Assembly: GCF_002356355.1 (NCBI RefSeq)
Contig: NZ_AP018052.1
Span: 1,736,001-1,800,000, forward strand
DNA length: 64,000 nt
Source of the DNA: Thiohalobacter thiocyanaticus
GTDB taxonomy: Bacteria; Pseudomonadota; Gammaproteobacteria; Thiohalobacterales; Thiohalobacteraceae
Direction: 5' to 3'
Shown: positions 1-3,214 of the stretch, piece by piece
How positions within the stretch are numbered: the stretch's first letter is position 1
Layout: the number at the start of each line of letters is the position of its first letter
Notes under the pieces: model-generated
Seen by the model: the letters and a program-made list of their open reading frames with translations, nothing else
The model's database searches: none
Told to the model about the DNA's origin: nothing
Translations under genes and position numbers: made by a program

Positions 1-280
1 CCGCATTGCCCCCGTGCTCGGCCTCGAGCAGATCGAACACGATGACCGCGCCGTCCGGGAAGCTGCCTGCCTGATAGCCCTCCAGTGCCGCATCATTGGC
101 GTACAGATGATGGATGCCGCCGAAGGCCTCGTACAGATCATGACCTTCCTCGATCACCATACTCTTGACGTGGTGCCAGTCGCGGTAGTCCTCGGGATAG
201 GGCACGCCATTGTCGTCCGCGAGGATGGGGGCTGAACTGATTCCGGCCAGGATGGCGAGTGAGAGTGCAGTACGGATCAT
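1..280 (-). CDS. Cytochrome P460 family protein, 3' end outside the window
   Basis: The reverse strand from ATG 280 reads a short hydrophobic signal peptide (MIRTALSLAILAGISSAPILA) followed by DDNGVPYPEDYRDWHHVK and an AFGGIHHLYAN segment. This matches the start of the cytochrome P460 domain, a periplasmic haem protein family linked to oxidation of hydroxylamine or to NO chemistry. Only 93 codons are visible, so the C-terminal CxxCH haem motif expected of the family is beyond the left edge. A strong AAGGAGGG ribosome site lies just upstream of the ATG. It is divergent from a MarR regulator, which suggests regulated expression. The substrate cannot be told from this fragment. Confidence 0.8.
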   Translation of the reverse strand, partial: MIRTALSLAILAGISSAPILADDNGVPYPEDYRDWHHVKSMVIEEGHDLYEAFGGIHHLYANDAALEGYQAGSFPDGAVIVFDLLEAEHGGNA

Positions 281-319
281 GATAATCCCTCCTTTATATA
301 TAATAAACAATTAACTATA

Positions 320-334
320 GTATTAACTTAATAC
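320..334. promoter_or_regulatory. AT-rich perfect palindrome, candidate MarR operator
   Basis: GTATTAA-C-TTAATAC is a perfect 15-base palindrome in the AT-rich gap between the divergent cytochrome P460 and MarR genes. MarR proteins usually bind AT-rich palindromes overlapping their own promoters, so this is the obvious operator candidate. Binding is inferred. Confidence 0.5.
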
Positions 335-417
335 AGATTATATGAATCGAGTCGATACAAAATGAAGTATTGACCCGACGCGCCTGCTTGTCAATAAATG
401 CTTTGAGGCGATACATT

Positions 418-987
418 ATGAGTATGAACCTCTCTGCCTTACTGCTCGAACGCCTGGGTGCATTGATCCATCAATCCGTGCGTGAGGACGCCGCCCGTCA
501 CGGCCTGCTGCCCATCCATGTGCAGGTGCTCGGCTACCTGGCCCAGGCCAACCGCTACAGCGATCTGCCCATTGCCATCGCCGAATACTTCGGTATTACC
601 CGCGGCACCGTGTCCCAGTCCCTGGCGGTACTGGAGCGCAAGGGCCTGCTGGTCAAGCGGCCGGACCCGAAACACGGCCGACGCATCCACCTGGAACTGA
701 CCCGGGCGGGCAGGGCGGTGCTCGAGCGCAGCTGGGCGCAGCGGCTGGATGCGGCACTGGCCGCGGCCGATGCCGGAGGCGAGGCGCTCGAGATCGGGCT
801 GCGGTCGCTGCTGGCAGAACTGCAGCGCCTCAATGGCCAGCGGGCCTTCGGTATCTGTCGTCAGTGTGTGCATTTCCAGGGCAGCCCGGAGAATGCCAGC
901 TGCGGCCTGACCGGTGAGCCCCTTGCCGAAGAGCAGACCGGGCGGTTGTGTCGTGAGTGGTCGCAGGCGGGTGGACAGGAAAGCTAG
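418..987 (+). CDS. MarR-family transcriptional regulator with Cys4 C-terminal tail
   Basis: A 189-aa winged-helix regulator. Residues about 8-140 form a MarR domain: IAEYFGITRGTVSQSLAVLE is the recognition helix region and the KHGRR segment the wing. The ATG at 418 is preferred over an upstream in-frame TTG (370) because a GAGG lies 8 bases before it and MSMNLSALLLERL is where MarR helix 1 begins. The unusual part is the tail, residues 145-180, with C147-X2-C150-X11-C162-X15-C178, a layout suited to Zn, an Fe-S cluster or thiol redox sensing. Divergence from a cytochrome P460 gene suggests it controls that gene in response to reactive nitrogen, metal or redox stress (inference). Confidence 0.85.
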   Translation: MSMNLSALLLERLGALIHQSVREDAARHGLLPIHVQVLGYLAQANRYSDLPIAIAEYFGITRGTVSQSLAVLERKGLLVKRPDPKHGRRIHLELTRAGRAVLERSWAQRLDAALAAADAGGEALEIGLRSLLAELQRLNGQRAFGICRQCVHFQGSPENASCGLTGEPLAEEQTGRLCREWSQAGGQES

Positions 988-1163: not shown

Positions 1164-1898
1164 TCAGGCTTTTGACGCGACGATGATCATTGCGACGAAC
1201 ACACCGCCGGCCAGGGCAACCAGGCTGTATCGCCTGTGCTCCTGTTCCGCCCGGGGCAGCAGGTGGGTGGCGCCGACATAGACCAGGGCGCCGGCGGACA
1301 GCGACAGCAGGGCGCCCAGCATATCCCGGTCAATCGCGCTGATGAAGGGATAGGAGACCAGCATGCCCAGCGGCGTGGTTGCCGCAGCCGCCAGGAACGC
1401 CAGGAGCACGGCCCTGCGCTCGGCGATGCCGCCGCGTACGAGTAGCAGATAGGTGATGATGCCTTCCGGAAATTCGTGCAGCACCATCCCCAGGGTCGCC
1501 AGGTAGCCCGTGAGGATGCTGACAGTGAAGGTGATGGAGTAGATAAAGCCGTCAATGAGGGAGTGCAAACCGATGCCGAGCATGGGGATCAGGCCGATGG
1601 CATAGTCCTTCCGCTCGGGATCGCGTTCGCAGACGAAGGCAGTGACGAATCGATTGAACAGGTGCAGTCCCAGGAACCCGGCCAGCAGCCAGAAGGGTGC
1701 CTGAGGATTCATTGAGAAGGATTTCGGGATGATGTGCAGAAAGGAAGCTGATACCAGCACCCCCGCCGCGAAGCACATGAAGTAGGTGGTGTTGCGATGT
1801 CCCCAGGCGGTGAAACGTCGGATGGTATAGATGCCCAGGCTCGTCACCAGGGCGGCAAGGCTGCTTGCGATCAGGGCAGTCCAGAAGCTGTTTTCCAT
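1164..1898 (-). CDS. ZIP-family divalent metal transporter
   Basis: A 244-aa integral membrane protein with about eight hydrophobic helices. The two signature metal-binding helices of the ZIP family are visible: HSLIDGF in helix 4 and HEFPEG in helix 5. ZIP proteins move Zn, Fe or other divalent cations into the cytoplasm. The ATG at 1898 follows AAGG; a GTG directly before it (1901) is an alternative. It lies downstream of the peroxiredoxin gene on the same strand but is separated from it by a terminator, so it is probably transcribed separately. Metal specificity cannot be assigned. Confidence 0.85.
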   Translation of the reverse strand: MENSFWTALIASSLAALVTSLGIYTIRRFTAWGHRNTTYFMCFAAGVLVSASFLHIIPKSFSMNPQAPFWLLAGFLGLHLFNRFVTAFVCERDPERKDYAIGLIPMLGIGLHSLIDGFIYSITFTVSILTGYLATLGMVLHEFPEGIITYLLLVRGGIAERRAVLLAFLAAAATTPLGMLVSYPFISAIDRDMLGALLSLSAGALVYVGATHLLPRAEQEHRRYSLVALAGGVFVAMIIVASKA

Positions 1899-1935
1899 CA
1901 CTGGCCTTTATCGTGTCGGGCTGCGGCGGCAAATC

Positions 1936-2716: not shown

Positions 2717-3214
2717 TTACAATTTATCTGATAGGCGATACCTATTGTTGTCGCCTTGTCGACATCCGCTGCGGCCGTGGCTTCTGTTCCGGCTATGTCC
2801 CTGGCCGTTGCCGGTTGCTGCGCAGCGGCGGAAGGCCGGCAGATGACGCTGCTGCGAGGCCGCCTGCAGATTGCGCAGCACCGCAAGTATGTCCTCGCGG
2901 TGGGTGGTCTGCAGCAGGCGCTCGTACATTTCGCCATTGGCGATCTCGGCGGCCACGCCCGCGGCACAGGCCTCCTGCAGGCTGGCGTAGCGTTCCACCC
3001 GGCCCGGCCAGGGATTGGCGGGCACCGGCAGGCCATGGTTCAGGAACAGGGAGCGTACGGCCTCAATGTGACGGGCCTCGGCCTCGCGAATGTTGCTGAA
3101 CGGCCTGACCTCGCCGAAATCCCGGATCACCTGGTCGTAGGTCGCCCAGGCGCGATACTCATCGTCGAGTGCCTCGTGGAGGGTGCGGATTTCGGCTTCG
3201 GTCAGGATATCCAT
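2717..3214 (-). CDS. Ferritin-like DUF2202 protein
   Basis: A 165-aa mostly helical protein. The DDEYRAWATYDQVI segment and E46-x2-H49 (EARHIEAV), with a second Glu/His set at YERLLQTTH and RHLPAF, are the metal ligands expected for the DUF2202 branch of the ferritin-like superfamily. The family is thought to bind a di-iron centre; its substrate is not known. The last 35 residues are a Gly/Arg/Asn-rich tail outside the domain. It lies upstream of the peroxiredoxin on the same strand, 87 bases away, and may be cotranscribed with it. Confidence 0.75.
   Translation of the reverse strand: MDILTEAEIRTLHEALDDEYRAWATYDQVIRDFGEVRPFSNIREAEARHIEAVRSLFLNHGLPVPANPWPGRVERYASLQEACAAGVAAEIANGEMYERLLQTTHREDILAVLRNLQAASQQRHLPAFRRCAATGNGQGHSRNRSHGRSGCRQGDNNRYRLSDKL

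Follow-up and report, generated by a model that had tools for sequence, protein, structure and literature searches.

What does a MarR-type regulator that carries an additional cysteine-rich tail respond to, and why does it stand back to back with a haem protein gene in Thiohalobacter thiocyanaticus? The two genes lie at the left edge of the stretch of 64,000 nucleotides analysed here, called the window below, which corresponds to positions 1736001-1800000 of a complete genome of 3.23 Mb.

A MarR regulator with a four-cysteine tail

424-987, forward strand: gene of the MarR regulator, with a probable leaderless start at 424 and a second in-frame ATG at 418
847-966, forward strand: C-terminal tail, FGxCxxCxHF-x-CGLTGEPL-x-CREW, with Cys codons at 856-858, 865-867, 901-903 and 949-951

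We number the residues of the regulator from the ATG at 418, from which the open reading frame (418-987) encodes 189 amino acids. Pfam MarR_2 matches residues 28-89 (E=4.7e-15, 55.9 bits against a cut-off of 27), and the full-length predicted structure (mean pLDDT 91) has MepR as its best structural match (Z 13.4, residues 4-136). The AdcR-type zinc MarR family (NCBIfam NF038251) was absent among the families reported at E<=10 for this protein, and some relatives match it at E<=0.001. A PADLOC run returned nothing beyond weak HTH matches.

The ORF translation contains C147, C150, C162 and C178 and no other cysteine, in the arrangement C147-X2-C150-X11-C162-X15-C178 that an earlier note on this DNA had described. 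The same note had placed this extension beyond the ordinary MarR fold, and the structural match rows of the full model agree, since they span residues 1-142 only and end before the tail. It had also suggested searching for further MarR proteins with such a tail. We scanned GTDB with a profile seeded by conserved MarR motifs and retained the best 80 of at least 588 candidate loci together with five plasmid-borne homologues, the set to which the locus frequencies below apply. The four cysteines are kept in 85/85 of these relatives (a best-match set including a few near-duplicates) with the spacing C-x2-C-x(10-13)-C-x15-C, and they span many phyla, the record names, mostly of metagenome bins, including Planctomycetota, Acidobacteria, Nitrospirota, Dadabacteria and Sericytochromatia. 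A profile of the tail alone found matches in 21 of the 397 genomes of the phylum, all of them on MarR-like proteins among the loci inspected.

The tail is covered by no Pfam or NCBIfam model, and a search of its profile against PDB sequences gave nothing better than E=1.3. Pfam yields weak matches of the tail to zinc ribbons, DZR_2 being hit in 10/40 with a best E of 0.0003, and none to Fe-S families. The tail blocks reach a pLDDT of about 90 in the full-length model and 58 when modelled in isolation, so the Foldseek search with the isolated tail carries no meaning. The pattern C-x2-C-x-C-x-C plus CxxW raised the idea of a HiPIP-like tail, which was unsupported, as hhalign against 11 HiPIPs (PF01355) gave a probability of 1.7% and a score equalled by 19 of 200 column-permuted controls. 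Because the weak matches are zinc ribbons, zinc appears at least as likely as an Fe-S centre.

The divergent gene encodes a cytochrome c'-beta

1-280, reverse strand: 5' part of the gene for cytochrome c'-beta, with a Cytochrome_P460 domain; its CxxCH motif, towards the C terminus, lies beyond the window edge

The divergent gene starts at 280 and extends 202 bases past the window edge (L002 9798-10280; end at G000:C1:1735798). The earlier note had called its product a cytochrome P460, and a Cytochrome_P460 domain is indeed present in the full-length protein (E=1.7e-33), but the residues are those of a c'-beta and not of P460 proper. The best PDB match is McCP-beta of Methylococcus capsulatus (6hih, E=1.3e-48), true P460s scoring about 1e-12. 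The Lys, distal carboxylate and cap residues are tabulated per class in a review (PMC11928373). The window protein has Phe at the place of the crosslinking Lys, Gly at that of the distal carboxylate and a Phe cap, and Phe32, Phe61 and Gly82 of McCP-beta are all present. It thus combines the Cytochrome_P460 fold and CxxCH with the hydrophobic replacement of Lys and the Phe or Arg cap (here Phe) that mark c'-betas, and has neither the haem-crosslinking Lys nor the distal carboxylate of cytochrome P460 proper. The same pattern occurs in 34/36 aligned sequences (35 neighbours plus the McCP-beta reference, a fragment taken from the PDB-match alignment). By these residues the divergent protein belongs to the cytochrome c'-beta branch and is predicted to bind NO or CO and not to be a hydroxylamine oxidase. 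As c'-betas do not oxidise hydroxylamine (PMC11928373), the link to hydroxylamine drawn in the earlier note is not supported.

A second Cytochrome_P460-domain gene of the genome (G000:C1:1057025-1057396, locus L105) belongs to the WPDG..VVWK type; it has a motif containing Lys, and there is no MarR gene nearby.

Two candidate operators and a shared -35 box

320-334, unstranded: 15-base palindrome of the earlier note, GTATTAACTTAATAC, perfect with 7-base arms; probably chance, not conserved
343-359, unstranded: predicted operator 1, TGAATCGAGTCGATACA, overlapping the predicted c'-beta transcription start
366-371, reverse strand: predicted c'-beta -10 (AATACT), separated from the -35 by 17 bases
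388-394, unstranded: shared self-complementary -35 box TTGTCAA (TTGTCA for marR at 388-393, TTGACA for c'-beta at 389-394)
399-415, unstranded: predicted operator 2, TGCTTTGAGGCGATACA, a weaker copy between the marR -35 and -10, overlapping the -10
412-417, forward strand: predicted -10 (TACATT) of marR, 6 bases ahead of the ATG at 424

The palindrome at 320-334 exists as the earlier note described it. It is nonetheless unremarkable, as dinucleotide shuffles of the gap produced the same palindrome form in 21/1000 cases and 7-base arms with a spacer of 0-10 in 176/1000. Given this modest chance rate and its absence from the two closest relatives, we discarded it as an operator.

A different motif, with the consensus TGnATCGAsTCGATnCA, is found in the gaps of relatives as TGYATCGASTCGATRCA about 81 bases ahead of the start. 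In the best-match set, operator 1 was present at 15/17 positions or better in 56/86 loci (0/1720 mononucleotide shuffles) and operator 2 at 13/17 or better in 52/86 (2/860 dinucleotide shuffles). These loci also supplied the consensus, and the shuffles control composition, not shared ancestry. Operator 2 keeps a fixed distance of -25 to the start in 39 loci. A scan of the 3.23 Mb genome returned 343-359 as the sole perfect match to operator 1, and the regulator therefore looks local. Allowing two mismatches added 17 places, against 6 for a reversed control; 8 of the 9 inspected fall inside ORFs, and we did not retain a wider regulon in this genome.

Ahead of the marR start, TTGTCA-N17/18-TAnnnT occurs in 45 loci and ends exactly six bases before the ATG in 40; of 53 loci with TTGTCA close to the start, 52 have the full TTGTCAA. 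On the opposite strand, TTGACA is followed by a -10-like hexamer at 16-18 bases in 32/52 loci, against 2-17 at other spacings, where the value of 17 comes from a spacing that overlaps the AT-rich operator. Because TACATT-N6-ATG is conserved, 424 is more likely than 418 to be the start codon, and the constant six-base distance indicates that the marR transcript is probably leaderless. Start sites and -10 boxes are the usual positions of repressors, and the placement of operator 1 over the predicted c'-beta start and of operator 2 over the marR -10 would accordingly give a repressor geometry. Since both promoters use one -35 box, the c'-beta and marR transcripts should exclude each other.

Partner genes of the regulator

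Profile searches over the 86 loci of the best-match set identified as partners c'-beta (35 loci), a CPVC glutaredoxin-like protein (35) and a redoxin (24), and more rarely an MBL-fold protein (9), DUF2024 (6) and Rof (3). Further loci added a secreted protein of about 250 amino acids (20 loci) and a YiiM-type MOSC protein (6). In the reverse direction, among 31 loci with a P460-domain gene (kinship ignored), the four-Cys MarR gene adjoins 5 of the 6 c'-beta genes and none of the 25 others. The MarR/c'-beta pairing is real. The proposal of the earlier note that the locus is a reactive-nitrogen or redox unit can thus be kept for a conserved divergent regulator-haem unit with other redox genes, without its hydroxylamine part.

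About 20 loci are without these partners; many belong to methanotrophs, with marR in another context. In the methanotroph loci L067, L068, L071, L073, L076-L078 and L094 the tail is kept, the operator and redox cassette are absent and marR lies downstream of other genes. The secreted protein beside the four-Cys MarR (L014:4140-4889, L011:4107-4859, L110:2174-2971 and 17 other loci) carries the conserved motifs HPDFDDTPL and WHSHWVVL and has almost no Pfam matches. In L010, L012 and L013 (Pseudomonas aeruginosa and Enterobacteriaceae plasmid records), MarR faces a cassette of Grx-like, DUF2024 and Rho-binding-antiterminator genes.

On the other side of marR in the window, a ZIP-like metal transporter gene (1164-1901, reverse strand) converges on it, followed by a peroxiredoxin gene (1976-2629) and a rubrerythrin-like ORF (2717-3214), an arrangement shared by just the two closest relatives. 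A role in zinc import, considered from this ZIP gene, was rejected, as the gene is retained only in L015 and L016 and has no operator there.

Proposed mechanism and alternatives

The conserved tail, predicted operators, promoter layout and association with redox neighbours, all obtained by comparing loci, suggest a dedicated stress sensor. We favour, as probable on balance if only just, a MarR protein that acts locally, represses its own gene and has a Cys4 site for Zn or Fe-S that reactive nitrogen or thiol stress would disrupt, because of its partner genes and of the precedent of ArnR, a wHTH [4Fe-4S] regulator of Corynebacterium that responds to NO and acts as a repressor of hmp (PMC12343034). 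A dimeric repressor would bind the strong palindrome at the c'-beta start site and, through the weaker copy, cover the -10 box of its own gene, so that both promoters, with their common -35 box, stay silent or weak. The metal centre, formed by Zn2+ or by an Fe-S cluster, would sit in the C-terminal Cys4 tail, and its disruption by reactive nitrogen species or thiol oxidation would release the repressor from DNA. The periplasmic c'-beta would then be made, or in other species the glutaredoxin-like, redoxin, MOSC or DUF2024 proteins. We infer repression, the metal and the signal in this MarR/c'-beta unit.

Structural Cys4 sites are common, and the tail could be a purely structural zinc knuckle on an ordinary MarR protein that responds to a small-molecule ligand bound in the pocket of its core, its cysteines sensing nothing. 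The zinc-ribbon matches of the tail and a core alignable along its length with the ligand-binding HcaR and MftR speak for this, but the partners are mainly redox and haem genes and not efflux or catabolic ones, and we regard it as unlikely. We give still less credence to an OhrR-like thiol switch without metal, in which the four cysteines form reversible disulfides: the tail does contain a CxxC motif, and the glutaredoxin-like and redoxin partners could reset such a switch, but a thiol switch of one or two cysteines accounts less well than a metal site for four invariant cysteines at near-constant spacing across many phyla. A hydroxylamine/P460 response unit with its operator at 320-334, as the earlier note had it, draws on the Pfam name Cytochrome_P460 and on a palindrome that does exist, and is very improbable given c'-beta residues with no crosslinking Lys and a non-conserved palindrome expected by chance at a modest rate.

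The signal of the favoured Cys4-metal repressor may be something other than NO, since many loci have thiol genes but no c'-beta. Methanotrophs, which account for most loci without any partner, also count against the favoured reading. That the regulators form a widespread, previously undescribed metal or Fe-S class of MarR proteins sensing NO or reactive nitrogen and controlling c'-beta and partner redox proteins is a tentative and rather doubtful extension.

Relation to known systems

The window regulator shares its fold, DNA-binding domain and, as predicted here, a divergent autoregulated layout with MepR, SlyA, OhrR and HcaR, and differs from them in the extra four-Cys tail past about residue 142. 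The RsrA-SigR system would be comparable as a metal-Cys switch over thiol-redox genes; RsrA is, however, a zinc anti-sigma factor, whereas we propose a DNA-binding repressor. With ArnR the regulator has in common a winged-helix domain, conserved C-terminal cysteines and, as predictions here, dimerisation and control of an NO-detoxifying haem protein, a likeness drawn from its published description. ArnR differs in having three conserved cysteines at other spacings and is restricted to Actinobacteria (PMC12343034). The haem protein resembles the c'-beta of Methylococcus capsulatus (6hih) in its Phe cap, Phe61 and Gly82. A literature search, mostly without subscription papers, found neither the four-Cys regulator nor a link between it and P460-domain proteins described, and the review of these proteins does not mention a MarR gene in the context of c'-beta (PMC11928373).

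The same regulator is present in Pseudomonas and Enterobacter records beside the uncharacterised partners DUF2024, Rof-like and Grx-like proteins. According to the 2025 review, what cytochromes c' do physiologically is still undetermined (PMC11928373), and a dedicated regulator with a defined, if predicted, operator brings the question within reach of experiment. An NO-sensing metal-MarR class, if true, would give c'-beta a physiological role.
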